Positions 1,648-35,538 of a stretch of DNA of 64,000 nucleotides are shown piece after piece. The DNA is from Arsukibacterium perlucidum DSM 18276 (GTDB taxonomy: Bacteria; Pseudomonadota; Gammaproteobacteria; Enterobacterales; Alteromonadaceae). Within the stretch, counting starts at the first letter, position 1. Each line of letters begins with the position of its first letter. The translations under genes and the position numbers were made by a program. Location: NCBI RefSeq assembly GCF_000382165.1, contig NZ_KB907709.1, positions 1 to 64,000 of the forward strand. The letters are read 5' to 3'. The notes beneath the pieces were generated by a model. The model searched no databases, had not been told where the DNA came from, and saw only the letters and a program-made list of their open reading frames with translations.

Positions 1648-2883
1648 TTAAGGCGCAACCTGTTGTAAAATTAACCCACATATATAGGCACCATAAGTGC
1701 CTAAACCATAGCCCAGCACCGCCAGCAATACGCCAACTGGCGCCAGCGAAGGGTGAAATGCTGCCGCTACCACCGGCGCTGAGGCAGCGCCACCAACGTT
1801 GGCCTGACTTCCCACAGCCAGATAAAACAGCGGCGCCTTAATTAACTTAGCCACCACCAACAACAAGATGGCATGCACCAGCATCCAAATGATACCGACC
1901 AGAAACATCAGTTTGTTACTCATAATGGCGGTAACATCCATTTGCATACCAATGGTAGCCACCAGAATATATAAAAATGCTGTACCCACTTTAGAGGCTC
2001 CGGCCCCTTCCAGTTTGCGGGCAGGGGTCAGTGATAACAGCAAACCAACAGTAGTGGCAATTACCACCAGCCAGAAAAAGCCGCTGGTTAAACTGTAATT
2101 GGCCAACTGTGGCGCAACCTGGCCAATCCACGGCGCAATAATATCTGCCAGCGCATGTGCCAGGCCGGTAACCCCAAATGCTACCGCTACAATCAGCATA
2201 ATATCCTGAATAGTTGGAATACGGGAATTTTCAGCCTGATATTGCTCTATTTTTTGCTGTAAATAGCCAATAGCGCGGGTATCGGCGCCATTCGCTTTAT
2301 CAATCTGTGCAGCCCGGCTGGCCATAAATAGCAACACAGCTAACCAGACATTGGCTACCAGTACATCCACAGTAATCATCACCGAGAACAGACTACCGCC
2401 TACTTCAAATACCTCTTTCATCGCTGCCTGATTGGCACCACCACCAATCCAGCTGCCGGCAACAGTGGTCATGCCGCGCCAGACATCACCACCCAGCTGT
2501 TCCGGGAAAAAATAGCCGACACTTAGTAACGCTATAGGCCCGCCAATAATAATGCCGAGGGTGCCGGTAAAAAACATAATCAATGCTTTGGGGCCCAACC
2601 CTAAAATAGCTTTAAAATCGACACTCAGGGTCAGCAATATCAGGCTGGCAGGCAACAGGTAACGGGACGCCATTTTATAAAGTGACGATGCCTCACCATC
2701 AATTATATTAAAACTGTTTAACAACGATGGAATAAAATAGCAGAGCAGTAACGCCGGCACATACTTATAAAAACCTCTACAAAAGCGGTTATTGCTGTGG
2801 CTGGTGTAAAAGACCAGGCCAAGAATAATGGCCAGTAAGCCTAGCACCACGGCGTCATTGTTAAACATAGGTGGTTGAGACAT
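1648..2883 (-). CDS. DUF819 family membrane protein (YjcL-like)
   Basis: 411-residue, strongly hydrophobic protein with about ten predicted membrane helices. It matches the DUF819 family (YjcL of Bacillus) by its overall plan and by the GSWIGGGANQAAMKE and GSQANVGGAASAPVVA segments, which recall the paired Gly/Asn-rich repeats of bacterial anion or Na+-coupled carriers. The substrate is unknown. The ATG is preceded by an AGGA ribosome site. It is followed after about 40 bp by the AI-2E family gene on the same strand. Family call is good, function open. Confidence 0.82.
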   Translation of the reverse strand: MSQPPMFNNDAVVLGLLAIILGLVFYTSHSNNRFCRGFYKYVPALLLCYFIPSLLNSFNIIDGEASSLYKMASRYLLPASLILLTLSVDFKAILGLGPKALIMFFTGTLGIIIGGPIALLSVGYFFPEQLGGDVWRGMTTVAGSWIGGGANQAAMKEVFEVGGSLFSVMITVDVLVANVWLAVLLFMASRAAQIDKANGADTRAIGYLQQKIEQYQAENSRIPTIQDIMLIVAVAFGVTGLAHALADIIAPWIGQVAPQLANYSLTSGFFWLVVIATTVGLLLSLTPARKLEGAGASKVGTAFLYILVATIGMQMDVTAIMSNKLMFLVGIIWMLVHAILLLVVAKLIKAPLFYLAVGSQANVGGAASAPVVAAAFHPSLAPVGVLLAVLGYGLGTYGAYICGLILQQVAP

Positions 2884-2931
2884 ATCGCGTCCTGTGTCAT
2901 TTTATTATTATTGTGGCAGCGGCGTATCCGC

Positions 2932-2999
2932 CAATTTTTTGGTCAACCCTGTACTTTGGCCAACCCAAAACTCTGGTCAAGCCAAAACTCTGGTCAACA
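2932..2999. repeat. Four imperfect 17-bp tandem repeats
   Basis: Four back-to-back 17-base units start at 2932, 2949, 2966 and 2983. Units 3 and 4 are nearly identical (caaaactctggtcaagc and caaaactctggtcaaca). Units 1 and 2 are degenerate but keep the TTGG(T/C)CAAC core. They lie in the 280-bp gap between the DUF819 gene and the HopJ-like gene, upstream of DUF819 on its strand. No coding role is apparent. Confidence 0.75.
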
Positions 3000-3141
3000 T
3001 AGCACAGCGCACCAGTTGGAGAAAATAGTCTGCAGCCTCTACCCAGCGAATTGCTAGTTGCAGCGATAATAAGAGGATGGAAAAACATAAAAAACTGCCA
3101 GTTGGTTTGCACAGGTAAAGCAGTTTGCTGAAAAACATCAG

Positions 3142-3170
3142 GCACCTGCTTTAAGCAGGTGCTTTATTCT
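3142..3170. terminator. Hairpin terminator at the end of the HopJ-like gene
   Basis: A perfect 9-bp stem (gcacctgct / agcaggtgc, 3142-3150 and 3154-3162) encloses a 3-base loop. It is followed on the + strand by a T-rich run to 3173. On the minus strand it lies just after the HopJ-like stop codon and is followed by a short T tract about five bases further on. It could serve both directions. Confidence 0.65.
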
Positions 3171-3505
3171 TTTAAGCGCAGCGGTTGCTGTTCAAACTGC
3201 ACACCATCCCACCCGTTTCGCATAAAGTTACGGATATTAGGATGATCTTCACCTTTCGGGTTCTCTAACACAGACTGATAAAAGTTACCAAATAGAAACA
3301 GTGTTTGCGGCTCTGATAATTGATGCAGCGCACCAAAAGCCAGAATTTTACAGGCGCCGGTATTTTCGCCGGCCAGATTGCTCAGCTCGCCATTTTGAAA
3401 AGCACACGGCTGGAAGTGATACATCTGATCAATAATCTCAATACTTTGCTGGAAACTAATGGTTTCAGGTTCAGTACTTAACTGAATGAAAAAGCTTTCT
3501 AACAT
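3164..3505 (-). CDS. HopJ type III effector family protein (DUF/PF08888)
   Basis: 113-residue soluble protein without signal peptide or membrane segment. The AFGALHQLSEPQTLFLFGNFYQSVL stretch and the following HPNIRNFMRNGWDGVQFE segment are characteristic of the HopJ family, named after a Pseudomonas effector but widespread as a chromosomal gene in free-living gammaproteobacteria. No secretion genes are nearby, so an effector role is unlikely; its cellular function is unknown. A GGAG ribosome site precedes the ATG. The length matches the family. Confidence 0.8.
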   Translation of the reverse strand: MLESFFIQLSTEPETISFQQSIEIIDQMYHFQPCAFQNGELSNLAGENTGACKILAFGALHQLSEPQTLFLFGNFYQSVLENPKGEDHPNIRNFMRNGWDGVQFEQQPLRLKE

Positions 3506-3755
3506 TGCAACTCCTGCCTTGTGCCGGCCTCGCTGGCCACTGTTATCCTGCCCGGACCTACCTGACTAAATATTAAGCTGCCATAACCTTAACTGCAATA
3601 CGAATAGCGCTGCGCTACCATTAAATTACCTTTTAGTAGCGGATCTGGCCAGTTTTTAGCAGCACTGTTGATATACTCTACGGCAAAAACTGACACTCTG
3701 GCGCCATGGCGCAGCTATGCCACCTTTCAGCTGTGGTTTCAGACAGGAGATTAAT

Positions 3756-4211
3756 ATGTTTCAGCAAACGATCGACAGCCCGTTAGGTCCGGTGCAGATT
3801 TGCGCTGATGAGCATGGTATCTGCAAGATTAATCTTGGGATAGCAACGCCAGCGCCAGATCTGCCATCCAAACTAACAGAACGCGCTGCCAGCCAGTTAA
3901 AGCAGTATTTTGCCGGTAGCTTAACCCAGTTCAGTTTACCACTGGCCGCCACTGGCACCGCTTTTCAGCAACAGGTTTGGCAAGCTCTTAGTCAGTTGTC
4001 ATTTGGCCAAACCTGCAGCTATGCCGATATTGCCAGAGAAATCGCTAACCCAAAAGCTGTGCGGGCCGTCGGCGCCGCCAATAGCAAAAACCCGATAGCT
4101 ATAGTAGTGCCCTGCCACCGGGTAATTGGCAGCAATGGCACCCTTACCGGCTATGCCGGTGGCCTGGATAATAAAGCCTGGCTGTTATCTCATGAACAAA
4201 AAGTTAGCTAA
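3756..4211 (+). CDS. ogt: Methylated-DNA--protein-cysteine methyltransferase
   Basis: 151-residue suicide repair protein that moves the alkyl group from O6-alkylguanine or O4-alkylthymine in DNA to its own cysteine. The active-site motif PCHRV is complete, with Cys at about residue 120. The upstream helix-turn-helix AFQQQVWQALSQLSFGQTCSYADIA and the downstream GYAGGLDNKAWLL loop are also typical. I chose the ATG at 3756 because AGGAG sits eight bases upstream and the protein begins with the family's usual strand; an in-frame ATG 39 bases earlier would add an unlikely cysteine-containing extension. There is no Ada-type N-terminal domain. Confidence 0.93.
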   Translation: MFQQTIDSPLGPVQICADEHGICKINLGIATPAPDLPSKLTERAASQLKQYFAGSLTQFSLPLAATGTAFQQQVWQALSQLSFGQTCSYADIAREIANPKAVRAVGAANSKNPIAIVVPCHRVIGSNGTLTGYAGGLDNKAWLLSHEQKVS

Positions 4212-4261
4212 TGAACAAAAATTCACCCTACAGCGCTGAAGCCTGAGATTAAATTGGCGCC

Positions 4262-4285
4262 ATAAAAAAACCGGGCTAAGCCCGG
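4262..4285 (-). terminator. Rho-independent terminator for the small outer-membrane protein gene
   Basis: On the minus strand the stem ccgggcttagcccgg (4271-4285) is followed by seven T residues (complement of 4264-4270). It lies about 60 bp beyond the stop of the outer-membrane barrel gene and also sits between two convergent genes. Confidence 0.85.
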
Positions 4286-4304
4286 CAAACCTGCAAGCAA
4301 AAAT

Positions 4305-4335
4305 GATAAGACGTTGCCGTCAGCAACGTCTTATC
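4305..4335 (-). terminator. Long perfect hairpin just after the barrel gene stop
   Basis: A perfect 13-bp stem (gataagacgttgc / gcaacgtcttatc) with a 5-base loop starts ten bases after the stop codon. On the minus strand it is followed by ATTTTTG. It may be a first terminator or a 3'-end stabiliser in front of the second hairpin at 4262-4285. Confidence 0.6.
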
Positions 4336-4344
4336 AGCCAGTCG

Positions 4345-4881
4345 TTAAAACTGGTAAGAGACACCAAACCGGAACTCATTTTTGGTATCGCCGCTGTTAA
4401 GCGCTAAATTGCCGCGGATCGCCCAGTCCGGACTTAAGAAATAAGCAATACCGCCAGCAAGGCTACCATGATCGTCATACACAGTGTGGTAAGTCGCTTC
4501 ACTGTACAATTCTACTTGAGGCGTTAATGGATGACGCACACCTACACCGGCATAGGCGCCTGTTTCATCAGCATCGCCTGACCAGTTTTCAACACCACCT
4601 AACAGATAAGTCTGGGTTTTAGGTGAAAAATCTAAAGTGTTACCCATAATGTAATTCAGGCCGGCTTTCAGCTGGTTAGCATCGAACGGACCGTTTGATA
4701 AACGGGCATAGCTGGCATCAGCAACCCAGTTACGATTCAACAGGAACGACCCTTCAACATATGGACCATCGCCAGCAGCATCGGTGTAACCTGCACCAAC
4801 GTAATCCCAAACAGGGTTAGCCATGCTATTTGCGCTTACTGTCATTGCCACCAGGGCTGATGCTACTAATAATTTCTTCAT
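4345..4881 (-). CDS. Small outer-membrane beta-barrel protein
   Basis: 178-residue exported protein. Residues 1-21 form a Sec signal peptide ending SMA. The mature part alternates short amphipathic strands with turns and ends in ...GVSYQF, the C-terminal aromatic signature recognised by the BAM complex; about eight strands would fit. It resembles the YfaZ/Ax21-like small barrel group of Shewanella and relatives. Nothing suggests an enzyme: I see no lipid A deacylase His-Ser pair in the right setting. It appears monocistronic and is followed by two hairpins. Confidence 0.7.
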   Translation of the reverse strand: MKKLLVASALVAMTVSANSMANPVWDYVGAGYTDAAGDGPYVEGSFLLNRNWVADASYARLSNGPFDANQLKAGLNYIMGNTLDFSPKTQTYLLGGVENWSGDADETGAYAGVGVRHPLTPQVELYSEATYHTVYDDHGSLAGGIAYFLSPDWAIRGNLALNSGDTKNEFRFGVSYQF

Positions 4882-5092
4882 TTTGTTACTCCATTAATTC
4901 TTCAAGTCAAGACTATCTGTCAGTGTCGCAATTGTGATGTATCTTAGCCCTCCAGACTTAACAGCTGCTGAACTCAGCGTCGTTGGCACTAATCCTCCAG
5001 TTTTTTCGAACGAATTGCCGCGTAAAATGGCATTTTATATTCGGATTAGTTGCGCTTTAATAGTGTCATAGACTATATGTCAGGAGCAAACC

Positions 5093-5989
5093 ATGAGCAG
5101 CCGCCATTTACAGCAGATCATTCCAGCCACGTCGGTATCAGATGGTGCCGGCGTAAAAATTAAACGCAGCCTGGGGCTGAATGCCCAGTTGCGGTTTGAC
5201 CCGTTTTTAATGCTCGACTGTTTTGGTTCTGAGCAAGCTGATGATTACATTAAGGGCTTTCCGCCCCATCCTCATCGCGGCTTTGAAACCGTAACCTATA
5301 TGCTGGATGGCCATATGTTGCATGAAGATCATTTGGGCAACAAAGGCCATTTAAAAAGTGGTGGTGTGCAGTGGATGACTGCTGGTCGTGGCATTATTCA
5401 CTCGGAAATGCCCCAGCAGGAACAGGGCCTGATGCGAGGGTTTCAGTTATGGTTAAATTTACCGGCAGCAGAGAAAATGAAGCCTGCAGCCTATATTGAT
5501 ATCAGCCCGGAGCAGATACCACAATTTGAACCAATGCCAGGCGTTAGCGTTAAAGTGATTGCCGGTAGTTTTAACCATGAAACTGCTTCAGTAACCGGCC
5601 CGATTAACGGCTTAAGCACAGAACCCCTGTTTTACGATATTCGCTTAACAGCCGGCAGCGAAATAACAGTGCCATTGCCACCAGGTCATCATGCAGTGCT
5701 TTACCCTTTCACAGGCACCGTACTGGTCAGAAAAGCAGATGGCCTGCAACAATTAAATGAACATCATGCCGGCTTATTAAGCCAGGGCGAAAGTGTAACC
5801 CTGGCAGCCAGTGCTGATGTCAGCTTAATATTACTGGCCGGTAAACCGATTGCAGAACCTGTAGTGCAATATGGCCCTTTTGTAATGAACAGCAGCGCCG
5901 AAATCGAGCAAGCCATTCGCGACTACCAGCACGGCAAGCTGACCGCTGGTGGCCCGGCAACCCAAATTAAGCTGTCGTCCCCCGCATAA
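5093..5989 (+). CDS. Pirin family protein (bicupin)
   Basis: 298-residue cytoplasmic bicupin. The N-terminal cupin carries the metal-binding motif FPPHPHRGFETVTYML (about residues 56-72) and the later RGIIHSEMPQ histidine and glutamate (about residues 99-108), matching the iron site of pirins such as YhhW, which can have quercetin 2,3-dioxygenase activity. The second cupin (about 170-285) lacks obvious metal ligands, as is usual. An AGGAG site lies six bases before the ATG. The biological substrate is unknown. It appears monocistronic. Confidence 0.88.
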   Translation: MSSRHLQQIIPATSVSDGAGVKIKRSLGLNAQLRFDPFLMLDCFGSEQADDYIKGFPPHPHRGFETVTYMLDGHMLHEDHLGNKGHLKSGGVQWMTAGRGIIHSEMPQQEQGLMRGFQLWLNLPAAEKMKPAAYIDISPEQIPQFEPMPGVSVKVIAGSFNHETASVTGPINGLSTEPLFYDIRLTAGSEITVPLPPGHHAVLYPFTGTVLVRKADGLQQLNEHHAGLLSQGESVTLAASADVSLILLAGKPIAEPVVQYGPFVMNSSAEIEQAIRDYQHGKLTAGGPATQIKLSSPA

Positions 5990-6086
5990 TCTTTGCCAGT
6001 CTGCGCGGTATTAACAGAGGATTTTCAGACGCAGGGCCTTTATACTAGTGTTTTTAATCTAGTGTTTTCAGTAAATGGGCCCAGTT

Positions 6087-6797
6087 ATGAAATTATTTGG
6101 TATTATCGGTGCAATGGAACCTGAAGTTGCCTTGCTTAAGCAACAGCTGACAGCTGGTAGCAGCGAACAGATTGGCAACTATCAGTTTATGCGTGGTCAG
6201 CTGGCCGGTTACGAGGTTGTCATTGTCCAGTCAGGCATTGGTAAAGTTGCTGCAGCCGTTGCTACCACCTTATTAATTGATCACTTTAAACCTGATTGCG
6301 TTATAAATACCGGCTCGGCCGGGGGCTTTGACCCTGAATTGAACGTCGGTGATATCGCCATTGGTACTGAAGTCCGCCATCATGATGTAGATGTTACCGC
6401 CTTTGGCTACGAGTATGGCCAGGTACCACAAATGCCCGCTGCTTATATTGCCCATCCGACGCTGGTCAATGCTGCAGAACAAACCATCGCCAGCCTGGGG
6501 TTTTGTAAAACCAAAAGCGGCCTTATTACTACTGGCGACAGTTTTATGTGCGACCCAGAGCGGATTGCACAAACCCGCGAACGTTTCCCCGGCATGCTGG
6601 CAGTAGAAATGGAAGGCGCGGCCATTGCCCAGGTTTGCCATATGCTGAATACACCTTTTGTGGTGATCAGAAGTTTAAGTGACATTGCCGGCAAAGAATC
6701 ACCGGTGTCTTTCGATGCCTACCTTGAAGTTGCGTCAAAAAACAGCTCAGCTATGGTAGTCGCCTTGCTCGGCCAACTGCGTGCTGTAAGTTTATAG
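6087..6797 (+). CDS. mtnN: 5'-methylthioadenosine/S-adenosylhomocysteine nucleosidase
   Basis: 236-residue cytoplasmic enzyme that hydrolyses methylthioadenosine and S-adenosylhomocysteine to adenine and the thiosugar, feeding methionine salvage and AI-2 synthesis. The opening [17 protein letters not shown], the [21 protein letters not shown] phosphate/ribose loop, the [12 protein letters not shown]-type ribose motif (here [13 protein letters not shown]) and RSLSDIAG with the catalytic Asp are all present. The start at 6087 matches the family N-terminus; an in-frame ATG four codons earlier is possible. The next gene, cbiB, begins about 50 bp downstream, a neighbour pair seen in Shewanella-like genomes. 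Confidence 0.95.
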
Positions 6798-6845
6798 TTA
6801 TGCACCTATTTGCGATCCAGTATTCAGCTACCCGGTTGCATAAAG

Positions 6846-12628: not shown

Positions 12629-13477
12629 ATGCAACCTCACCTGCTTAAAGGCGCCTTGCTGTTATTGCTGGCTGAAGCCTGCTTTGCCGGTATTGGCGCT
12701 GTGGTTAAATACAGCAGTGATCTGGCCAGCGAAGCGCAAATTGTGTTTTTCCGCAACCTGTTTGCATTAGTGCTGATGCTGCCCTTTTTATATCGTCATG
12801 GTTTTGCCATGCTAAAAACCCAGCGCTGGTATCTGCATTTAAGCCGGGCCCTGACCGGTCTGGTATCGATGTACTGTTTCTTTTATGTATTATCACAGCT
12901 GCCTCTGGCTCAGGCGATGATGGTTATTATGCTATCGCCTTTTATTGTGCCTATTCTGGCCCGCTTCTGGTTAAATGAACGTCCCAGCCGGGTGACCCGC
13001 TTTGGCATTGCCCTGGGCTTTATCGGCGTCATCCTGGCGCTGCCAAGCCCGGAGCCGGGACTGAACCTGGTATTACTGTTAGCTCTGTTTTCAGCCTTTT
13101 TAGTGGCGATAACCAAAACCACCATCAGAGCAATGGCCAGCACCGAGTCAGCCGTACGGATTGTGTTTTATTTTTCGCTGCTAACCGCCTTACTATCAGC
13201 CATACCGGTACCCTTTTACTGGCAGCCGCTCGCAGCTGAAGTATGGCTGGCATTTATCGGTATGGGTGTCCTGGCGGCAATTGGCCAGCTGGCAATGACC
13301 CGCGCCTTTGCCATTGCCCCGGCCAGTGATATTGGGATGTGGACCTACAGCAGCGTGTTATTTGCCGGTGCCTTTGGTTATTTTTTCTGGCAGGAGCCAG
13401 TAACCTGGGGCTGGTTGGCCGGGGTGATTGTGATTTTTTATGCTGGCTATGTTACCACCCGCCAACGTCTGTTTTAG
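12629..13477 (+). CDS. DMT (EamA/RhaT) superfamily transporter
   Basis: 282-residue inner-membrane protein with ten predicted helices in two EamA repeats of about 140 residues each. The first repeat has the family's FFRNLFA and SPFIVPILARFWLNERPS segments. The second has GQLAMTRAFAIAPASDIGMWTYSSVLFAGAFGYFFWQEP. Such proteins move small metabolites; the substrate cannot be predicted. AGGA precedes the ATG. It is separate from the signalling gene upstream (about 100 bp) and from miaB downstream (about 110 bp). Confidence 0.88.
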   Translation: MQPHLLKGALLLLLAEACFAGIGAVVKYSSDLASEAQIVFFRNLFALVLMLPFLYRHGFAMLKTQRWYLHLSRALTGLVSMYCFFYVLSQLPLAQAMMVIMLSPFIVPILARFWLNERPSRVTRFGIALGFIGVILALPSPEPGLNLVLLLALFSAFLVAITKTTIRAMASTESAVRIVFYFSLLTALLSAIPVPFYWQPLAAEVWLAFIGMGVLAAIGQLAMTRAFAIAPASDIGMWTYSSVLFAGAFGYFFWQEPVTWGWLAGVIVIFYAGYVTTRQRLF

Positions 13478-28637: not shown

Positions 28638-28913
28638 ATGAACGAACAAAATTGTCTGCAAAAAATTCGCAATCTTGGTGTTCGTTTACAGGAGCTGGAA
28701 TTAGTGCAACTGGAACCCGGTAAATCTTACGCGACCACGGCCCTGAATTTCTTATTTGCCGACCATGGTGTGCAGCGCCCGGCTGGCGTGCCGCTGGACC
28801 ATACGTTACGTGCGCTTGGTGAAGCAATAGTTGCTAATCGCAAGGTACGCTTCAGCACGCTTGACCCGGACAGCGTCATCGATTTTTTCTGTCGTTTTTA
28901 CCGGGTACATTGA
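28638..28913 (+). CDS. Hypothetical small protein
   Basis: 91-residue soluble protein with no signal peptide, cysteine cluster or recognised motif. An AGG-GAGG stretch precedes the ATG and the codon use resembles its neighbours, so I take it as real. It lies divergent from the Lon-like gene and 78 bp before the copper-RiPP precursor. A probable promoter of that precursor starts just after its stop, so it is not clearly in that operon. Function unknown. Confidence 0.6.
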   Translation: MNEQNCLQKIRNLGVRLQELELVQLEPGKSYATTALNFLFADHGVQRPAGVPLDHTLRALGEAIVANRKVRFSTLDPDSVIDFFCRFYRVH

Positions 28914-28927
28914 AATAAACATTTTTT

Positions 28928-28958
28928 TGAAATACCTTTGCTGGTGGGCAGGTCTTAT
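28928..28958 (+). promoter_or_regulatory. Candidate ECF-type promoter of the RiPP precursor operon
   Basis: TGAAAT (28928-28933) and GTCTTAT (28952-28958) are separated by 18 bases, 34 bases before the ATG of the precursor. The same two elements at exactly the same spacing occur before the thioredoxin gene (31097) and the DoxX gene (33039). An ECF sigma gene lies in the same cluster, so this is the likely sigma-dependent promoter set. The assignment of -35 and -10 roles is inferred. Confidence 0.7.
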
Positions 28959-28991: not shown

Positions 28992-29429
28992 ATGAAAACA
29001 CTGAACAAAACCCAACTTTCATTCGCCCTTGGTGCCATGGCATTAGGCTCAGTAGCCTCTGGCGCCGCTCATGCCGATACTAATCCTTTTGCTGCTGCTG
29101 AACTTAGCATGGCGTATCAGCTGGCTGCCACTGAAGGTAAATGTGGTGAAGGCAAATGCGGTACTGATAAAGCGAAAGATAAAGCCAAAGACAAAGCAAA
29201 AGAAATGAAGTGCGGCGAAGGCAAATGCGGTGAAGGTAAGTGTGGCGCCGACAAAGCAAAAGCCAAAGCTGAAGATAAAGCAAAAGAAATGAAATGTGGC
29301 GAAGGCAAATGCGGTGAAGGTAAGTGTGGTGCCGACAAAGCCGCCAAAATGAAAGACGATGCCAAAGCCAAAGCTGAAGATAAAGCAAAAGAAATGAAGT
29401 GTGGCGAAGGCAAGTGTGGAGCTGCTTAA
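28992..29429 (+). CDS. hvfA: HvfA/bufferin-type copper-binding RiPP precursor
   Basis: 145 residues. A Sec signal peptide (1-28, ending AAHA) acts as the leader. The core has ten cysteines (51, 56, 74, 79, 84, 102, 107, 112, 137, 142), all as KCG: seven EGKCG and three EMKCG motifs. Lys/Ala/Asp-rich spacers (DKAKDKAK, AKAEDKAK) separate four modules. In HvfA and bufferins, an MNIO enzyme turns such cysteines into thioamide/oxazolone or related copper-binding groups, and the peptide is exported to the periplasm. The maturase gene starts 3 bp after the stop. Number and type of modifications are not predictable. Confidence 0.9.
   Translation: MKTLNKTQLSFALGAMALGSVASGAAHADTNPFAAAELSMAYQLAATEGKCGEGKCGTDKAKDKAKDKAKEMKCGEGKCGEGKCGADKAKAKAEDKAKEMKCGEGKCGEGKCGADKAAKMKDDAKAKAEDKAKEMKCGEGKCGAA
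29133..29426 (+). repeat. Internal modular repeats of the RiPP precursor core
   Basis: The core is built of four modules, each a cysteine block of two or three KCG motifs followed (except the last) by a Lys/Ala spacer. Modules 2 and 3 are nearly identical at DNA level over about 60 bases; module 3 carries an extra seven residues (AKMKDDA region). This indicates growth by internal duplication. Confidence 0.8.
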
Positions 29430-29432
29430 GCA

Positions 29433-30287
29433 GTGACCACCCAAACGCCATTAACCGGCGCCGGCCTTGGCCTGCGCCGGGAAATGCTGGCAGACGTGCT
29501 GGACAGCAGCAACCAGGCTATCGACTTTTTTGAAGTCGCACCGGAAAACTGGCTGCCTTATGGCGGCAAACTGGCCGCTCAGTTTAAAACACTAACCGAG
29601 CGTTACCCTTTTGCCTGTCATGGCTTATCGTTGTCAATTGGCAGCCCTGATCCGCTGGATATCGATTTTATTAAGCAGTTAAAAACATTTTTTAAAACCC
29701 ACAACATCCGTCTGTACAGCGAACATTTAAGCTATTGCTCAGCCGGCGGTCACTTATACGATTTAATGCCGATACCCTTTACCGAAGAAGCAGTAAAATA
29801 TGTGGCAGAACGGGTGCGGACCGTGCAGGACATTCTGGAACAGCCACTTATTCTGGAAAACGTGTCTTACTATGCTGCGCCTGGTCAGCAAATGAGCGAG
29901 CTGGAATTTATCTGCGAAGTGCTCAAACAAGCCGATTGCCAGCTGTTGCTCGATGTAAATAATATCTATGTTAATTCGGTAAACCATGGTTATGACCCAC
30001 TGGCTTTTTTACAGGCCTTGCCAACTGAGCGCATTGCTTACTATCACGTTGCTGGCCATTATCAGCAGGCAGCTGATTTACTGATTGATACGCACGGCGC
30101 CGATGTGCCGGATCCGGTCTGGCAACTGCTGCAGCAAACCTATCGCCAGCATGGCGTCAAGCCCACCTTATATGAACGCGATTTTAATATTCCCTCGCTT
30201 GGCAGCCTGCAGCATGAACTGACGTATATCAGAACATTGCAACAGCAAGCCAGCAGCACCAGGGCTAAAAAGAAGCTGGCCATATGA
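29433..30287 (+). CDS. hvfB: MNIO (DUF692) RiPP maturase, HvfB/BufB type
   Basis: 284-residue multinuclear non-heme iron oxidase (PF05114). The TIM-barrel metal residues are visible: His63 in CHGLS, Glu97-His98 in YSEHLS, Glu142 in LENVSYY, Asp174 and Asn176 in DVNNIYVN, His185 in NHG, His205 and His209 in YHVAGH, Glu248 in YERD. It should modify precursor cysteines using iron and oxygen. It starts at GTG, 3 bp after the precursor stop, with GGAG inside the precursor's last codons. Its stop overlaps the DUF2063 start (ATGA), so all three are coupled. Confidence 0.93.
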   Translation: MTTQTPLTGAGLGLRREMLADVLDSSNQAIDFFEVAPENWLPYGGKLAAQFKTLTERYPFACHGLSLSIGSPDPLDIDFIKQLKTFFKTHNIRLYSEHLSYCSAGGHLYDLMPIPFTEEAVKYVAERVRTVQDILEQPLILENVSYYAAPGQQMSELEFICEVLKQADCQLLLDVNNIYVNSVNHGYDPLAFLQALPTERIAYYHVAGHYQQAADLLIDTHGADVPDPVWQLLQQTYRQHGVKPTLYERDFNIPSLGSLQHELTYIRTLQQQASSTRAKKKLAI

Positions 30288-31078
30288 GTACTGAGCCAAG
30301 CAAACCAGATAACGCTGATTTTAAACAGCTGCAACAGCAGTTTGCTGCGTATATTCGAAATCCGGCAGAAACGTCGCCGCCGACAGGCATCGAGCAGCGC
30401 CGGCTTAACGTCTACAGTGAGCTATTTTTTAATAACGTGCAAGGCTTTCTCGATACGGCCTTTCCGGTGTTAAAAACCCTGTACAGCGAATCTGACTGGA
30501 CTGCCCTCGCCCGGCAGTTTTTCAGCAACTATGCCTGCCACAGCCCCTACTTTTTGCAGATAGCAGAGCAGTTTGTAACCTTTTTACAGGATTACCAGCC
30601 AACAGCTGCCGATCCGCCATTTTTAGCCGAGCTGGCGCATTACGAATGGGCTGAGCTGTATATAGCCACTTTAACAAGTGAGCAGCAATTGCCGCCACTT
30701 AGCCCGGCAGAACTTGCCGGCGACGCCCTCAGCAGCAGCCGGTTGCAGTTATCTGAACTGGCCATGCTGTGTGCTTATCAGTATCCGGTGCAGCAAATTT
30801 GTGCTGAGTTCCAGCCGGCCGAACCAGCACAGCCGGTATTTTTTCTGTTGTATCGCAACAGCGAGCACGAGGTAAAGTTTGTGCAGCTGAATCAGGCAAC
30901 TCTACTGCTGTTAAACACTCTGGCTGAACAACCGGGCCTGACGTTTAAGCAATTAATTCAGGCAATATCACTGCATTTACCTGGTTTAACTTTGCCGCAA
31001 CTGCAACAAGGCGCCCTGCCATTAGTGCAGGAATTGGCCAGCAAGGGCGCCATTTGCCGCCATGTAACACAATATTGA
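30284..31078 (+). CDS. hvfC: DUF2063 RiPP maturation partner, HvfC/BufC type
   Basis: 264 residues. The N-terminal DUF2063 domain (about 15-110) has the family features RRLNVYSELFFNNVQGFLDTAFPVLKTL and the FFSNYACHSPYFLQIAEQFVTFL segment. The C-terminal half is a winged-helix-like region. These proteins partner the MNIO enzyme, in part like the RRE-containing MbnC/TglB-type helpers, to present the precursor. It overlaps the maturase gene by four bases. Its stop lies within a candidate TetR site for the following gene. Confidence 0.92.
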   Translation: MSTEPSKPDNADFKQLQQQFAAYIRNPAETSPPTGIEQRRLNVYSELFFNNVQGFLDTAFPVLKTLYSESDWTALARQFFSNYACHSPYFLQIAEQFVTFLQDYQPTAADPPFLAELAHYEWAELYIATLTSEQQLPPLSPAELAGDALSSSRLQLSELAMLCAYQYPVQQICAEFQPAEPAQPVFFLLYRNSEHEVKFVQLNQATLLLLNTLAEQPGLTFKQLIQAISLHLPGLTLPQLQQGALPLVQELASKGAICRHVTQY

Positions 31079-31091
31079 ACATTTGTTCCAA
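31075..31091. promoter_or_regulatory. Candidate TetR operator before the thioredoxin gene
   Basis: TTGAACATTTGTTCCAA contains the core GAAC-N4-GTTC and matches 14 of 16 positions of the perfect palindrome upstream of tetR (32896-32911). It overlaps the DUF2063 stop codon and ends six bases before the candidate -35 element at 31097. Confidence 0.55.
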
Positions 31092-31096
31092 ATAGC

Positions 31097-31127
31097 TGAA
31101 ATAGTTTGAGTGGTCGTCTGGTCTTGT
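31097..31127 (+). promoter_or_regulatory. Candidate ECF-type promoter of thioredoxin-ccdA
   Basis: TGAAAT (31097-31102) and GTCTTGT (31121-31127) are 18 bases apart, 43 bases before the ATG. Elements and spacing match those before the RiPP precursor and the DoxX gene. Similarity to the precursor promoter continues past the -10 (ACTGAC). Confidence 0.65.
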
Positions 31128-31170
31128 TACTGACACTTAAAACTTATTATCACTAACAGAGGAACAGCCA

Positions 31171-31554
31171 ATGAAATCACTTTTACTTACCTTGCTATTT
31201 GCTTTAATGATAGGCAGCGCTGCCGCAGCGCAAACACCTTTCACTGCTGAGAAGTTTCAGCAGGCACAAGCTGAAGATAAAGTTATTCTGATCGACATAT
31301 ACGCCGAATGGTGTCCAACCTGCCGCCGCCAAAGCAAAATTATCAATGAATATTTCACGGCAAACCCGGACAGCAAAATCCAGCTGCTAACCGTTGACTT
31401 CGATAGCCAAAAAGACTGGGCAACCCATTTTAAAGCGCCAAGACAGTCTACCCTGTTGGTATACAAAGGCTTTGAGCAAATTCACTTTTCAGTGGCTGAA
31501 ACCAGCAAAGAGCGGATTTTCAAAACCCTGAGCGACGCTGAGCAGGCTAACTAA
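31171..31554 (+). CDS. Periplasmic thioredoxin-fold protein
   Basis: 127 residues. A signal peptide (about 1-20) precedes a thioredoxin fold with the active site AEWCPTCRRQ (Cys about 48 and 51), as in the C-terminal domain of DsbD and related reductases. It probably acts as a periplasmic thiol reductase. The next gene, a CcdA-like membrane electron carrier, starts directly after its stop, so the pair could rebuild a split DsbD. Its own promoter matches that of the RiPP precursor, suggesting it keeps precursor cysteines or metal sites reduced. Confidence 0.85.
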   Translation: MKSLLLTLLFALMIGSAAAAQTPFTAEKFQQAQAEDKVILIDIYAEWCPTCRRQSKIINEYFTANPDSKIQLLTVDFDSQKDWATHFKAPRQSTLLVYKGFEQIHFSVAETSKERIFKTLSDAEQAN

Positions 31555-32247
31555 ATGGAATTTACTGCTATTCCCCTAGCCTTGCTGGCCGGCGTGCTAA
31601 GCCTGCTATCGCCCTGTGTGCTGCCTATGGTACCGGCAGTCGCGGCGTCAGCTATACAGTCGTCACGGCTTGGCTTGCTGATGCTGGCTGCAGGTATCAG
31701 TTTGTCCTTTGCGCTGGCCGGTACCATACTGACTTTTCTGTTACTTAATGCCGGTATTTCACCCGATGTTATGCGTTACTTTTCGGCTGGCTTATTGCTG
31801 CTGATGGGTATAGTGCTGCTGGTGCCGGCACTCAGTGACCAAATGGCATTCTGGTTGTCGCGCTTCACCAGCCGCTTACCCGGCCAGAATATTAGCGGCA
31901 ATGGCGTGGCAATGCAGTTTGTGATTGGTGCCTCACTGGGCTTAATCTGGTTACCTTGTGTTGGCCCTACCCTGGGCACCGCTATCGCGTTGGCTTCCAC
32001 CGGACAAAGTATGCCCATGGCCTTTATAGTGATGCTGACATTCGGTTTGGGTGCGGCACTACCGCTGGTGTTTGTCGGCCATTTATCCGGGGCGCAACTG
32101 GCAAAGTTACGCTTATCAGGTCAGTTTAGTAAATATTTGCTAGGGGCAGCACTGCTGCTGATAGCACTTATGATTTTTACCGGCTTTGATAAGGTACTGG
32201 AAATCTGGGCCATTGAGTGGTTGCCAGACTGGGTAACCTCAATCTGA
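31555..32247 (+). CDS. CcdA/DsbD-type membrane thiol-disulfide transporter
   Basis: 230 residues with six predicted helices. Two conserved cysteine motifs, LLSPCVLPMVPA (about Cys 21) and LIWLPCVGPTLG (about Cys 135), match the DsbD transmembrane domain and CcdA, which pass electrons from cytoplasmic thioredoxin to the periplasm. The ATG follows the thioredoxin stop without a gap. It likely reduces the upstream periplasmic thioredoxin. The gene is convergent with tetR downstream. Confidence 0.88.
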   Translation: MEFTAIPLALLAGVLSLLSPCVLPMVPAVAASAIQSSRLGLLMLAAGISLSFALAGTILTFLLLNAGISPDVMRYFSAGLLLLMGIVLLVPALSDQMAFWLSRFTSRLPGQNISGNGVAMQFVIGASLGLIWLPCVGPTLGTAIALASTGQSMPMAFIVMLTFGLGAALPLVFVGHLSGAQLAKLRLSGQFSKYLLGAALLLIALMIFTGFDKVLEIWAIEWLPDWVTSI

Positions 32248-32256
32248 GGTCTCATT

Positions 32257-32302
32257 GCACACTGTCGGTATTGCGTTATGCCATGCCTTCAGTGTGCTTT
32301 TT
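32257..32302 (+). terminator. Possible terminator between ccdA-like gene and tetR
   Basis: The stem gcacactg / cagtgtgc (32257-32264 and 32290-32297) with a 25-base loop is followed by five Ts. The large loop makes this a weak call. It overlaps the 3' end of tetR. Confidence 0.4.
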
Positions 32303-32885
32303 CTGCAGGTAGTATTGCCAGCGCTTGTTGTAACAAACAATCCAACACTGCCGGTTCAGGCTGCAACCTGGTAACGCTTTTCAGACCAATCAATTGCATC
32401 TGATAAAAACTGGCCAGCGCTGCCGGATCAGTATCTGCCGCCAGTAAGCCTGCTTGTTTAGCCTGTGCCAACAGCCGGGTAAATTGAGCAGCCATTTGCT
32501 GCAGCAACTCCCGGGCCAGGCTGGCCAACGGATGCTGCTCTGCCCCAAGCTCGGTTACCGTTTTTACCAGCATACACACTTTATCGGGTTGGCCCGTTAA
32601 GCTGTTTGCGAGTGCCTGGCGCATAAACTGTCGCAGCACCTTAAGCGGGCAATCCAGCTGTTGCTCAAGTGCCTGTAATGAGGCAAGGCCAGCGGCGGCA
32701 TAATGCAGCAGAGCTTCACGGTACAAATTTTCTTTGTCACCAAAACTGGCGTACAGGCTACCCGGCCGTAAATTTACCGCCTGTTGCACATCCCGCATGG
32801 AGCAGCCCTTAAAGCCCCGGGCCCAGAATAATGTTGTGGCATTGGCGATAACCTGTTGCCTGTCAAATTTTGCACTGTTAACCAT
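32289..32885 (-). CDS. TetR/AcrR family transcriptional regulator
   Basis: About 198 residues. The N-terminal helix-turn-helix reads VIANATTLFWARGFKGCSMRDVQQAVNLRPGSLYASFGDKENLYREAL, typical of TetR. The C-terminal ligand domain (about 60-195) has no recognised ligand motif. I chose the ATG at 32885 because AAGAGGTGG lies just upstream; a TTG 18 bases earlier would only lengthen it. A perfect 16-bp palindrome lies 11 bases before the start and similar sites precede the thioredoxin and sigma genes, so it probably represses itself and parts of this cluster. Confidence 0.9.
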   Translation of the reverse strand: MVNSAKFDRQQVIANATTLFWARGFKGCSMRDVQQAVNLRPGSLYASFGDKENLYREALLHYAAAGLASLQALEQQLDCPLKVLRQFMRQALANSLTGQPDKVCMLVKTVTELGAEQHPLASLARELLQQMAAQFTRLLAQAKQAGLLAADTDPAALASFYQMQLIGLKSVTRLQPEPAVLDCLLQQALAILPAEKAH

Positions 32886-32895
32886 AAACCACCTC

Positions 32896-32911
32896 TTGAA
32901 CAATTGTTCAA
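32896..32911. promoter_or_regulatory. Perfect 16-bp palindrome, candidate TetR autoregulatory operator
   Basis: TTGAACAATTGTTCAA is a perfect palindrome just upstream of the tetR ribosome site. The core GAAC-N4-GTTC recurs at 31077 and 33760 within the same cluster. The position fits autorepression. Confidence 0.7.
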
Positions 32912-33038
32912 ATATATATTAACCAGCCAGCCAATAGCAACCAGCTAAAGCTGATATTGCGAAACTCGTTTTTAAATCAATTTCGGCGGTGCCGGTGATC
33001 TCAGGTATTAAACTTATTGAGTTTATTTTAAAAAATAC

Positions 33039-33069
33039 TGAAAGTTTTCTGCTGCTGGTGCTGTCTTAT
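33039..33069 (+). promoter_or_regulatory. Candidate ECF-type promoter of doxX-sigma operon
   Basis: TGAAAG (33039-33044) and GTCTTAT (33063-33069) are 18 bases apart and 33 bases before the DoxX ATG. Spacing is identical to the two other candidate promoters of the cluster. If the sigma gene downstream is read from here, it is autoregulated. Confidence 0.65.
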
Positions 33070-33102
33070 CAGTAAGACACAATTTAAAGACAGGACAACC
33101 CG

Positions 33103-33738
33103 ATGTTGCAATCGATCCGGCAAGTTTACCTAAAGTCACTGCAATGGCTGACCCCAATAGATGGCCTGGCGCCGCTGCTGTTGCGGCTTATTCTGGCCCC
33201 GGTGCTTATTCAGGCTGGCTGGAATAAATTCAGTCACTTTGCCGATACCGTAGCCTGGTTTGGTAACAGCGATTGGGGGCTGGGTTTACCATTGCCATGG
33301 CTGCTAGCGAGTCTGGCGATAGCCGCGGAACTTATCGGTGGCGTTATGCTGTTACTTGGTTTGCTGACCAGATTGGTGACGATACCGCTGCTTGTTACCA
33401 TGCTGGTTGCCATTTTTGCCGTTCACCTGCCCTATGGCTGGCCTGCTATAGCCGATAGCAGCAGCTGGCTGGCCGATGGCACCCTTTTACTGAACGAGCG
33501 GGTGATGGATAGCAGCGATAAAATAGAAGCCGCCCGCAGCTTGCTGCAACAACACGGTAATTACGACTGGCTGACCTCAAGCGGCAAACTGGTGATCCTG
33601 AACAACGGTATTGAATTTGCGGCAATTTACTTCGCTATGTTACTGAGCTTGCTATTTAGCGGCGGTGGCCGCTATGTCAGCGCTGATTACTGGCTGCAGC
33701 GCTATAGCAATGCGGCTTCAAAAACTGTTGCACAATGA
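33103..33738 (+). CDS. hvfX: DoxX family membrane protein, HvfX/GigT type
   Basis: 211 residues with four helices typical of DoxX (LAPLLLRLILAPVLIQAGWNKFSHF; IAAELIGGVMLLLGLLTRLVTIPLL). A 60-residue polar insert lies between helices 3 and 4, as in the DoxX proteins that accompany DUF692/DUF2063 genes (HvfX, GigT). The role in copper-RiPP systems is not settled. Here it is separated from the precursor operon but has the same promoter type. The ECF sigma gene follows after 59 bp. Confidence 0.85.
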   Translation: MLQSIRQVYLKSLQWLTPIDGLAPLLLRLILAPVLIQAGWNKFSHFADTVAWFGNSDWGLGLPLPWLLASLAIAAELIGGVMLLLGLLTRLVTIPLLVTMLVAIFAVHLPYGWPAIADSSSWLADGTLLLNERVMDSSDKIEAARSLLQQHGNYDWLTSSGKLVILNNGIEFAAIYFAMLLSLLFSGGGRYVSADYWLQRYSNAASKTVAQ

Positions 33739-33757
33739 GCCACTAACATGAGCTTAC

Positions 33758-33774
33758 TTGAACATGCGTTCCAA
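33758..33774. promoter_or_regulatory. Candidate TetR operator before the ECF sigma gene
   Basis: TTGAACATGCGTTCCAA has the GAAC-N4-GTTC core and matches the site before the thioredoxin gene at 15 of 17 positions. It lies between doxX and the sigma gene, 24 bases before the sigma ATG. Confidence 0.55.
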
Positions 33775-33797
33775 TTAATCCTTTACAGGTTCCGGCT

Positions 33798-34400
33798 ATG
33801 TCTATTACGCTAATGACACCTTCCAGCGAACAAAAGCTGCCAGCAATGTCACAATCACGAAATAGCCTGTTCAGTTTGCCGGTCTCTTTATTTAAGCGCA
33901 AAGCAGAAAGTAACAGCCAGCGCTATGAACAGCTGGTGCGGCTATACCATGCTGATTTATACCGCTATGCCTTCTGGCTGTGCCGGGACCAGCATATTGC
34001 TGAAGACATCGTCCAGGATACGTTTTTACGGGCCTGGAAAGCACTCGATTCATTACTGGACGACAATGCAGCAAAAAGCTGGCTTATCACCATTTTGCGC
34101 CGGGAAAATGCCCGGCGGTTTGAGCGCAAACAACTGGATTACAGTGATATTGAGCAAGAAAGCTTAACCGATGAGATTAACCCGGCATTGGAGCAACAGT
34201 ATGATAATGCCTTACTGCAACAGCAGTTACTGTTGCTGCCAGCCGAGTATGGCGAACCGCTGTTGCTGCAGGCCCTGGCCGGGTTTAACAGTGACGAAAT
34301 TGGCCAGCTATTAAGTTTAAATGTGAATACCGTTAATACCCGCTTATTCCGGGCCCGGCAATTACTGAAACAGCGCCTGACAGCACAGCATAGAGGGTAA
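33798..34400 (+). CDS. ECF sigma factor
   Basis: 200 residues. Region 2 (about 42-110) contains YHADLYRYAFWLCRDQHIAEDIVQDTFLRAWKAL. Region 4 (about 140-195) contains LLLQALAGFNSDEIGQLLSLNVNTVNTRLFRARQLLKQRL. There is no region 1.1 or 3, so it is an extracytoplasmic-function sigma. A 40-residue N-terminal extension is present; a start at the second Met (residue 17) is possible. The DUF3379 gene four bp downstream is the likely anti-sigma. The three matching promoters in this cluster are its probable targets. Confidence 0.93.
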   Translation: MSITLMTPSSEQKLPAMSQSRNSLFSLPVSLFKRKAESNSQRYEQLVRLYHADLYRYAFWLCRDQHIAEDIVQDTFLRAWKALDSLLDDNAAKSWLITILRRENARRFERKQLDYSDIEQESLTDEINPALEQQYDNALLQQQLLLLPAEYGEPLLLQALAGFNSDEIGQLLSLNVNTVNTRLFRARQLLKQRLTAQHRG

Positions 34401-34404
34401 GCAG

Positions 34405-35112
34405 ATGGCAGATTTAACCATAAAACAAGCCCTGATAGCGGATCCACAGGCCCGCAATGCGGATCTGGCCAGAGCCGTGGCTGCCGACCCTGAGTTGCAG
34501 CAACTGCAACGCCAGTTACTGCTGGATCAGGCCAGAATTAAACAGGCATTGCAATTTGCCGTGCCCGATTCGCTGCAGCTTAAACTGTTGCGCCAGCAGA
34601 TGCTGTTGAGCCAGCAAGCCCAGAAAAGGCGCTTTAGCGGGGCTATTGCCCTGGCTGCCTCTATCGCTTTTGTGGCCGGCCTTACCCTGAACTGGTTTAA
34701 CTATGGTTACCCGCAAATGACCTTAGGCGAACATGCACTGGCCCATGTATACCATGAAGCCCCTTACCTGGAACAAATGCTGGCACCACAGCCGCTTAAT
34801 CAGGTTAACGCTAAGCTGGCCAGTTTCGGAGCCGAGTTAACTGACTGGCAACAAGCCATTGTTTATGCCAACTTTTGTGATTTTCGCGGTACCCGGTCCC
34901 TGCATCTGGTGATGCAAACCGAGCATGGCCTGGCGACGGTGTTTTTGGTGCCTGACAGCAACAAGCTGAAATTTGAACATCATTTCTCAGATAATACCTA
35001 TCGTGGCCGCAGCCTGGCTTTAAAAACAGCAGATTTAGTGATAGTGAGTGAAAATGATGCTGATCTTCAGCAATTACCCGCTAAACTGAAGCAACAACTT
35101 AAGTTTATATAA
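34405..35112 (+). CDS. DUF3379 membrane protein, probable anti-sigma factor
   Basis: 235 residues. A cytoplasmic helical N-terminus (1-75), one membrane helix (about 78-97) and a periplasmic domain (about 100-235) form an anti-sigma topology. It belongs to DUF3379, a family found next to ECF sigma genes in Shewanella and relatives. There is no HxxxCxxC zinc anti-sigma motif, and the periplasmic part has a single cysteine near residue 158. It starts four bp after the sigma stop. The signal it senses is unknown; copper or envelope stress is plausible from context. Confidence 0.8.
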   Translation: MADLTIKQALIADPQARNADLARAVAADPELQQLQRQLLLDQARIKQALQFAVPDSLQLKLLRQQMLLSQQAQKRRFSGAIALAASIAFVAGLTLNWFNYGYPQMTLGEHALAHVYHEAPYLEQMLAPQPLNQVNAKLASFGAELTDWQQAIVYANFCDFRGTRSLHLVMQTEHGLATVFLVPDSNKLKFEHHFSDNTYRGRSLALKTADLVIVSENDADLQQLPAKLKQQLKFI

Positions 35113-35136
35113 GCCAGCACCAAGCAGGGATGCCCA

Positions 35137-35538
35137 ATGACCGACAAAAATCAGGCCGAATGGCTGTTAGTTCAGCAAAGTTACGATAAACAAGAACAGC
35201 AAGCACTGTGGCTGAAAGTTATCACTATTCTGGTATGGCTGTGGCTACTGAAAAACGCCGCAGGTATTGAACTGCAGCTCGGGGTTATTGGCTTGTTCTG
35301 GCTGCACGAAGCCATACTTAAAACCTGGCAGCAACGCGCAGCCAACCGCCTGTTGCAGCTGGAGCAAGCCATTTTACAGGCGCAGGATATTGGTTGTCAG
35401 TGGCATAGCCAGTGGCAGTATCAGCGCCAAAACCCGCTGCAACTGCTGCTGGGTTATGCCAAGCAGGCTGCCAAGCCTACCGTTGCAGTAACTTACCTGG
35501 CATTAATAGCCGCCAGCCTGCTGCGGCTCTGGTTGTAG
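35137..35538 (+). CDS. Hypothetical small membrane protein
   Basis: 133 residues with two to three hydrophobic segments (about 25-42, 45-62, 112-132) and a central Gln-rich helical loop. No family recognised. It starts 24 bp after the DUF3379 gene in the same operon, so it may take part in the same stress response. Its last 36 bases overlap the 3' end of the convergent PnuC-type gene. Confidence 0.7.
   Translation: MTDKNQAEWLLVQQSYDKQEQQALWLKVITILVWLWLLKNAAGIELQLGVIGLFWLHEAILKTWQQRAANRLLQLEQAILQAQDIGCQWHSQWQYQRQNPLQLLLGYAKQAAKPTVAVTYLALIAASLLRLWL

Follow-up and report, generated by a model that had tools for sequence, protein, structure and literature searches.

Why are genes for a copper-binding peptide found together with genes for thiol reduction, and what could control them jointly? 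The question is raised by a locus in the 64,000-nucleotide stretch of contig NZ_KB907709.1 from Arsukibacterium perlucidum DSM 18276 that was analysed here (the window). In this locus an hvfABC cluster, encoding an HvfA-type precursor, the HvfB maturase and the HvfC partner protein, is followed by genes for a thioredoxin-like protein (Trx), a CcdA-like electron carrier, a TetR regulator, HvfX, an extracytoplasmic function (ECF) sigma factor and a DUF3379 membrane protein. The reading that we regard as probable, from shared promoter-like boxes and their distribution, is that the locus belongs to a copper- or oxidant-responsive ECF–DUF3379 regulon that would combine a thiooxazole metallophore with periplasmic reducing power and repair, and that in this genome would include a captured, TetR-controlled thiol cassette.

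All of the genes listed in an earlier, sequence-only reading of this DNA were found in place, and their families were confirmed with Pfam and NCBIfam (Table 1). HvfB, HvfC and HvfX all exceed the NCBIfam equivalog cut-offs, as expected for an HvfA-type cluster, and the nearest named relatives of HvfB are from Arsukibacterium tuosuense and A. indicum. The precursor has ten Lys-Cys-Gly repeat units (counted by eye) and scores 50.2 bits with the stricter equivalog model NF050188, under its cut-off of 95. The three genes had been described as overlapping or 3 bp apart, which matches the 3 bp spacing between hvfA and hvfB and the 4 bp overlap between hvfB and hvfC. The curated models also agree with the description of a locus for a copper-related ribosomally synthesized and post-translationally modified peptide (RiPP) of HvfA type, with a sigma factor, thiol-reduction genes and TetR. 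The additional label 'bufferin' was dropped: assignment to the bufferin (Buf1) type was rejected as the BufB model NF050167 gave 281.5 bits, below its cut-off of 310, and no DUF2282 protein was found among those scanned. ScsBCD, DsbD and CcdA systems pair a membrane carrier with a periplasmic thioredoxin, and Scs is linked to copper; the window has the membrane part only, corresponding to the beta part of DsbD (DsbD_TM), with one separate Trx and no DsbD_N domain. Both cysteines of the Trx (C48 and C51) and both of the CcdA-like protein (C21 and C135) are kept in 22 of 22 aligned sequences.

ECF promoters are usually bipartite sites with GTC in the -10 element. The proposal that the genes are tied by shared promoters, unproven when it was made, gains support from putative ECF boxes that are exact before hvfA and trx and degenerate before hvfX (Table 1); at hvfX, the box is regular in four of four sister loci (L032, L033, L035 and L036; by eye). 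The TetR gene is tied to the locus differently from the rest, through an operator. At three or fewer mismatches the window holds 17 boxes against a chance mean of 15.7, which is no excess; because box numbers show no enrichment, the analysis relied only on exact or near-exact boxes at gene starts and on how far these are conserved. A loosened form of the box, YGAAAK-N17-GGTCY (C or T at the first position, T or G at the sixth, and C or T after GGTC), has eight sites without mismatch in the 4.0 Mb genome. Five of these lie upstream of hvfA, trx-ccdA, dsbD, a catalase gene and a gene for an MsrA-Trx-MsrB protein (msrAB); the other three lie within the sigma gene (one) and within unrelated genes (two). 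The dsbD gene (L175) is divergent from groES and encodes DsbD_N and DsbD_TM in the part examined, the catalase gene has a cytochrome b561-like neighbour and the MsrA-Trx-MsrB protein has a signal peptide (the last two by eye). The msrAB box emerged from the genome scan and had not been sought beforehand. The coherence of this list of boxed genes is the strongest evidence of the analysis, and it suggests that the link between hvf and thiol reduction is made by the regulon (the boxes at dsbD, msrAB and catalase) more than by the island. The sites L172 and L370, which fall within genes, were discounted as chance matches, and L183 (at a helicase gene by eye, with TGGAATA) was discounted as weak.

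The association of the box with DUF3379 was assessed in a sample of 295 genomes of the GTDB family, with DUF3379 counted as absent when a genome was not among the matches listed in the family scan. The strict pattern, TGAAATA with GGTC, was used for the hvfA, ECF-gene, trx and first dsbD tests. The hvfA box is present in 49 of 56 loci with DUF3379, where one DUF3379-positive locus that has no upstream sequence (L055) counts as a miss, compared with one of 18 loci without DUF3379 and none of three with weak or outlying DUF3379 matches (77 loci; 1.1% in shuffled regions). Four of the 81 loci, all DUF3379-negative, have no recognizable hvfA and were left out (L235, L236, L237 and L240); the sole DUF3379-negative hit (L229) has a spacing of 15 and TGAAAAA. 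For dsbD, the preset rule (no more than one mismatch, 350 bp) gave 13 of 30 genomes with DUF3379 and none of 28 without (null 1.1%), and the post hoc loosened form, matched exactly in 650 bp, gave 20 of 30 and none of 28 (null 0.14%); dsbD itself was not matched in two of 30 DUF3379-negative genomes. Of the genomes tested in the window's own genus, 11 of 11 with DUF3379 and none of three without have the strict box at dsbD. In two loci (L313 and L309) the box stands just ahead of a cutA-like frame (by eye from the translation), which is followed by dsbD. The catalase gene is present in 23 of 35 genomes asked, and the loosened box with no more than one mismatch precedes it in 13 of 15 with DUF3379, about half of which are distant relatives, and in none of eight without (null 1.1%); exact matches number six of 15 and none of eight (null 0.02%). 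For msrAB, present in 20 of 32 genomes asked, the corresponding values are 14 of 14 and one of six (null 1.3%), with exact matches in six of 14 and none of six (null 0.03%).

Class I anti-sigma factors have an N-terminal helical domain, one membrane segment and an extracytoplasmic sensor. The AlphaFold model of DUF3379 (mean pLDDT, the predicted local distance difference test score, of 83.5) comprises four N-terminal helices, an uncertain region at residues 76–101 matching the sole hydrophobic segment and a confident domain behind it, and this predicted topology would fit a class I ECF anti-sigma factor. In an alignment of 26 DUF3379 proteins H114, C158 and H167, all in the putative periplasmic domain, are invariant and H117, in the same domain, is nearly so. 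A sequence search of the PDB gave nothing meaningful for DUF3379, and the family is not named in the literature searched. No match to NrsF was found among the window proteins scanned.

The position of the thiol pair and TetR varies, and the comparison does not support a stable island. Seven genomes are of Arsukibacterium type, with HvfB at least 80% identical, and only two of them, the window and L094 (no hvfX in the stretch seen), have trx-ccdA-tetR in the gap from hvfC to the sigma gene. In L034 trx-ccdA is inverted after hvfC, with no TetR and with neither hvfX nor an ECF gene in the stretch, and the remaining four genomes have no trx-ccdA at the hvfC–sigma gap. Linkage to hvfABC in related genomes does exist, but it is uncommon. 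The CcdA subfamily of the window occurs in 19 of the 295 genomes and adjoins trx in all 17 loci examined beyond the window; it stands beside hvfABC in two of the 19 (the window and G185) and beside a bufferin-type cluster in a third (G042). More broadly, trx-ccdA is near hvfABC in five of 140 hvfB loci, plus the window, where some genomes occur in both collections. When the distant CcdA of L100 was used as query, 16 of the 295 genomes had a match, all within the same 19. Six genomes from four genera have a near-box (one or two mismatches) at trx-ccdA copies away from hvf, and each of these genomes has DUF3379 (L244, L245, L246, L252, L253 and L258; four of the six have GTTC for GGTC, and the shuffle p is up to 0.033). 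No trx-ccdA box was found in the DUF3379-positive genomes G185, G035, G036 and G250, and the seven trx-ccdA genomes without DUF3379 have a single two-mismatch site, which falls on a start codon. The cassette therefore appears to be an accessory unit. Over part of its range its promoter makes it a member of the regulon, and it has become docked in the hvf locus.

The predicted TetR operator TTGAACANNTGTTCNA has only two exact matches in the genome, one upstream of trx and one at tetR. Five further matches have a single mismatch and include the one that precedes the sigma gene (six matches for the reversed control). In the window there are five operator cores with no more than one mismatch, compared with 1.5 in shuffles, and none of 100 shuffles reached five. 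Perfect cores are present at all three places in L094; four sister loci without TetR have no operator at the sigma gene, and the only such site seen in them is a one-mismatch site in L035, about 3.5 kb from the sigma gene. From the operator at its own start, TetR would be autoregulated. The closest solved relative of TetR is CifR, and C110, present in all three TetRs, aligns with a Cys that is Ser in chain 6nsm; because of this alignment our guess is that TetR acts as a reactive-Cys sensor, and it is likely to be a sensor of reactive electrophiles or oxidation.

Could trx-ccdA-tetR be an unrelated accessory cassette that came to lie in the hvfC–hvfX gap by chance? The cassette is not in the gap in five of the seven Arsukibacterium-type genomes, trx-ccdA stands alone with its own TetR and operator-like sites in L252, and most of the 19 genomes with a window-type ccdA have it elsewhere. 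However, the operator core starts before the trx box by 20 bp in the window, 20 bp in L094 and 19 bp in L252; the third operator, at the sigma gene, is found in the window and L094 and not in the four TetR-less sisters; and other unlinked trx-ccdA copies have near-boxes. In addition, an independent window-type trx-ccdA copy is divergent from a bufferin-type cluster, DUF2282-MNIO-DUF2063-DoxX (MNIO, multinuclear nonhaem iron-dependent oxidase), at L250 (G042, positions 1789–5702; no DUF3379 match in this genome). Because of this bufferin-type neighbour, chance insertion is rated lower, and we consider it very improbable.

Other loci pair MNIO genes with thiol carriers in ways of their own. In Alishewanella longhuensis (L099), Rheinheimera sp. 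UJ63 (L100) and A. agri (L104) a distant trx-ccdA pair lies directly before hvfABC, with a divergent ECF gene and an NrsF gene; no DUF3379 is labelled at these loci. In L077 the frame of a DsbD_N-DsbD_TM-Trx protein begins 2.1 kb downstream of hvfC, from which a gene separates it. These parallel cases are few but point the same way, without need of DUF3379. Between the divergent ECF gene and trx, L100 and L104 have in common a TGTAAC-rich stretch followed by GTC (by eye), which is a possible NrsF-type sigma promoter for trx-ccdA-hvfABC. Positions 12757–16099 of L077 hold an Scs-like run, with a DsbD-like frame and then TlpA-like and DsbA-like frames (the latter two by eye), in a genome without a DUF3379 match. 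At L259 (G250, positions 4497–6834) the genes after trx-ccdA encode an ECF factor of a different type and a 198-residue protein without a Pfam match.

These pairings bear on what the thiol carriers act on. It is possible, if rather unlikely, that trx-ccdA and dsbD serve MsrA-Trx-MsrB or general repair of oxidized proteins and that the metallophore is merely co-induced and never a substrate. MsrA-Trx-MsrB, which has its own Trx domain, does carry the same box, and the Haemophilus RpoE2 regulon links msrAB with the DoxX (hvf) cluster, for which the available text names no thiol carrier (PMC7907618). Against this, trx-ccdA is attached to MNIO clusters in the window, L094, L034, L099, L100, L104 and L250, the DsbD-type gene of L077 starts 2.1 kb behind hvfC, and a Microbulbifer MNIO peptide forms a disulfide that is reducible by tris(2-carboxyethyl)phosphine (PMC12538549). 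Fontiphorin, a further MNIO product, has alkylatable thiols and aggregates (PMC13097082). We infer from these findings that both the metallophore and MsrAB would be held in the reduced state by the thiol carriers, which is a step from co-regulation to substrate.

The arrangement can be compared with four further known systems. In Haemophilus influenzae (RpoE2) and Neisseria meningitidis (SigE) one ECF factor controls a DoxX cluster of hvfABCX homologues together with msrAB (PMC7907618). The window genome is alike in that the hvf cluster and msrAB both carry the putative box. The anti-sigma factor there is a 67-residue protein likened to the zinc-binding anti-sigma (ZAS) factors of ECF group 13, whereas the window has the 235-residue DUF3379, and in the window genome dsbD, trx-ccdA and catalase are boxed as well. 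The gig operon of Cupriavidus metallidurans is induced by periplasmic Cu(I) and acts together with glutathione, and gigPABT-rpoQ-rsqA likewise places precursor, MNIO, DUF2063 and DoxX genes beside an ECF/anti-sigma pair; control by RpoQ is not proven there, and DsbD, catalase and methionine sulfoxide were not found in the text available (PMC10304878). Caulobacter sigma-F/NrsF is also an ECF factor with a membrane anti-sigma factor that has periplasmic cysteines, and its targets include DUF692, DUF2063 and DoxX proteins (PMC3511200), but it has a DUF2282 precursor and NrsF; NrsF-type pairs are found in L099, L100 and L104 and not in the window. The captophorins (fontiphorin, oxazolin and gonophorin) have HvfA-, HvfB- and HvfC-type genes and are 5-thiooxazole copper peptides, a kind of product that is predicted for the window locus; no regulator is discussed for them in the available text (PMC13097082). 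A survey of MNIO clusters places sigma and NrsF genes in Buf1 and not Buf2 clusters and finds mostly core genes in EGKCG clusters; thioredoxin, TetR, DsbD and DUF3379 were not found in its main text, as far as available (PMC12452194). Among the papers listed for these terms in the literature searched, none had dsbD and DUF692 together, where MNIO was not searched jointly with dsbD.

Several observations weigh against an ECF–DUF3379 regulon centred on hvf. In the window itself the hvfX box is degenerate, and in the genome the box is not enriched by number (eight loosened exact sites compared with 30 for the reversed pattern, and 21 strict sites with one mismatch compared with 27). The loosened form and the longer stretch were chosen after the first dsbD rows had been viewed, and the form was then applied unchanged to catalase, the genome scan and msrAB. 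At threshold, the box is missing from seven of the 56 DUF3379-positive hvfA loci, one for want of sequence, and from 17 (preset) or ten (loosened) of the 30 DUF3379-positive genomes at dsbD; in G185, a DUF3379-positive sister, trx-ccdA lies beside hvfC without a box. In most of the hvf loci examined there is no ECF gene within 9.5 kb of hvf, so the ECF factor is linked to hvf as its sigma factor only by correlation. DUF3379 is found in 240 of the 295 family genomes and an HvfB-like protein in 211, so the ECF–DUF3379 pair probably has other duties, and since the pairings at L250, L099, L100 and L104 come without DUF3379, the pair is not needed for MNIO genes to be joined with trx-ccdA. Metal binding by DUF3379 is a guess from the invariant residues.

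Kinship also limits the association, as the counts of box against DUF3379 lack independence. DUF3379 changes about four times on each of the HvfB and DsbD trees, and the box ten and eight times, respectively, so that the association rests on only about four independent losses. For the two supported independent pairs at hvfA the box went the same way in 1.6 on average and showed no difference in 0.4; for the four at dsbD the values were 2.3 and 1.7. The box going the opposite way averaged 0.0, and the tree-corrected sign test is underpowered, 0.05 being unreachable with so few pairs. The small number of losses, together with the further ECF factors of these genomes that were left out of the count, would also suit the explanation that the box belongs to another sigma factor and that DUF3379 is only a phylogenetic marker of the lineages that have it. 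We consider this unlikely. In 12 of 20 loci, each from a different genus, the ECF gene of the ECF–DUF3379 pair is itself preceded by a like box with no more than two mismatches (null 2.9%). Of the genomes tested in the window's genus, the three that lack DUF3379 also lack the box at hvfA and dsbD, and the two of them that possess catalase and msrAB genes (G230 and G242) have no box there either.

For the ECF–DUF3379 regulon, we infer sigma–box recognition, the anti-sigma role, the inducer, electron flow and substrates from the observed gene identities, shared boxes, operators and co-occurrence. The locus would form the core of a small regulon, whose ECF sigma factor would be held by the membrane protein DUF3379 as anti-sigma factor, and periplasmic copper or oxidant stress would act on the periplasmic domain of DUF3379 and release the sigma factor. 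Free sigma factor would then drive hvfABC and hvfX, giving a 5-thiooxazole copper-binding peptide of captophorin type; periplasmic thiol reduction through dsbD (with cutA in some other genera) and, here, the captured trx-ccdA; periplasmic MsrA-Trx-MsrB for protein repair; and periplasmic catalase. The trx-ccdA pair would move electrons from the cytoplasm across the membrane to the periplasmic thioredoxin, and the reducing arm would most likely keep the exposed sulfurs of the peptide and the thioredoxin domain of MsrAB reduced. The TetR of the cassette would provide a second input to trx-ccdA, to tetR itself and to the sigma gene.

Table 1. Genes and predicted regulatory sites of the hvf locus, in window positions. 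Bit scores are followed by model cut-offs.
Feature	Position	Strand	Basis
ECF box before hvfA, TGAAATA-N16-GGTCTT, exact	28928..28956	+	Pattern scan
HvfA-type precursor	28992..29429	+	NF050137, 69.4 bits (19.5); 10 KCG units and signal peptide, both by eye
HvfB, MNIO (DUF692) maturase	29433..30287	+	NF003818, 443.5 (360)
HvfC, DUF2063/RiPP recognition element (RRE) partner	30284..31078	+	NF050145, 280.4 (142)
Putative TetR operator TTGAACATTTGTTCCAA, just before trx box	31075..31091	+	Motif scan
ECF box before trx-ccdA, TGAAATA-N16-GGTCTT, exact	31097..31125	+	Pattern scan
Periplasmic thioredoxin-like protein (Trx)	31171..31554	+	Pfam Thioredoxin; CPTC, C48-x-x-C51; signal peptide by eye
CcdA/DsbD-TM-like electron carrier	31555..32247	+	PF02683 (DsbD_TM) above cut-off; C21, C135
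TetR (TetR_N and TetR_C_13), CifR-like	32289..32903	-	Pfam match; an ATG at 32885
Putative TetR operator TTGAACAATTGTTCAA, at tetR start	32896..32911		Motif scan
Degenerate ECF box before hvfX, TGAAAGT-N16-TGTCTT	33039..33067	+	Pattern scan; three mismatches to strict form
HvfX (DoxX family)	33103..33738	+	NF050144, 231.6 (80)
Putative TetR operator near-copy TTGAACATGCGTTCCAA, before sigma gene	33758..33774	+	Motif scan; one mismatch
ECF sigma factor (PRK12517 subfamily)	33798..34400	+	NF009170, 257.9 (197)
Box CGAAATA-N16-GGTCTC within 5' part of sigma gene	33858..33886	+	Like box before unlinked ECF genes
DUF3379, 235 residues, proposed membrane anti-sigma factor	34405..35112	+	PF11859, 203.7 (33.2)
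Small membrane-like protein, 133 residues, after DUF3379	35137..35538	+	Open reading frame; no NCBIfam or Pfam match

Some further features of these loci were observed. The tetR gene is convergent with ccdA and divergent from hvfX. The box within the sigma gene is present in four of five relatives (L032, L035, L036 and L094), has three mismatches in the fifth (L033) and is absent from L046–L048; no in-frame start follows close behind, the box may perhaps be a relic, and coding constraint could explain why it is kept. In genus g45 (L046, L047 and L048) hvfX-ECF-DUF3379 and hvfABC share a strand and are about 8 kb apart. Five loci of the same or a near group without DUF3379 (L038, L039, L041, L099 and L100) have no ECF box before hvfA, and three of them (L041, L099 and L100) share a CTGTTTAGGCT-like stretch there that may be a replacement promoter (by eye). 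Loci of Arsukibacterium and Alishewanella keep a 91-residue open reading frame without a Pfam match (28638–28913 in the window) between a Lon-like gene and hvfA (or trx-ccdA-hvfA).

Judged from its genes and boxes, the locus resembles the SigE regulon of Neisseria and the RpoE2 regulon of Haemophilus, with a different anti-sigma candidate and additional genes for thiol reduction, and the analysis suggests that production of the peptide and its maintenance in the reduced state form one coordinated stress response. This gives DUF3379 a candidate function and connects thiooxazole copper peptides with periplasmic reducing power in a way that can be tested. If correct, it would offer an explanation for the reports that associate MNIO copper peptides with responses to copper as well as to oxidants, and electron supply would be a missing part of the MNIO copper-peptide system. 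A further proposal, which we put forward only tentatively, is that DUF3379 represents a novel class of anti-sigma factor that senses copper or redox state and that the thiol carriers of its regulon are a dedicated arm for recycling the 5-thiooxazole sulfurs to the reduced state, in which case the copper-binding peptide would be a rechargeable rather than a single-use copper buffer.

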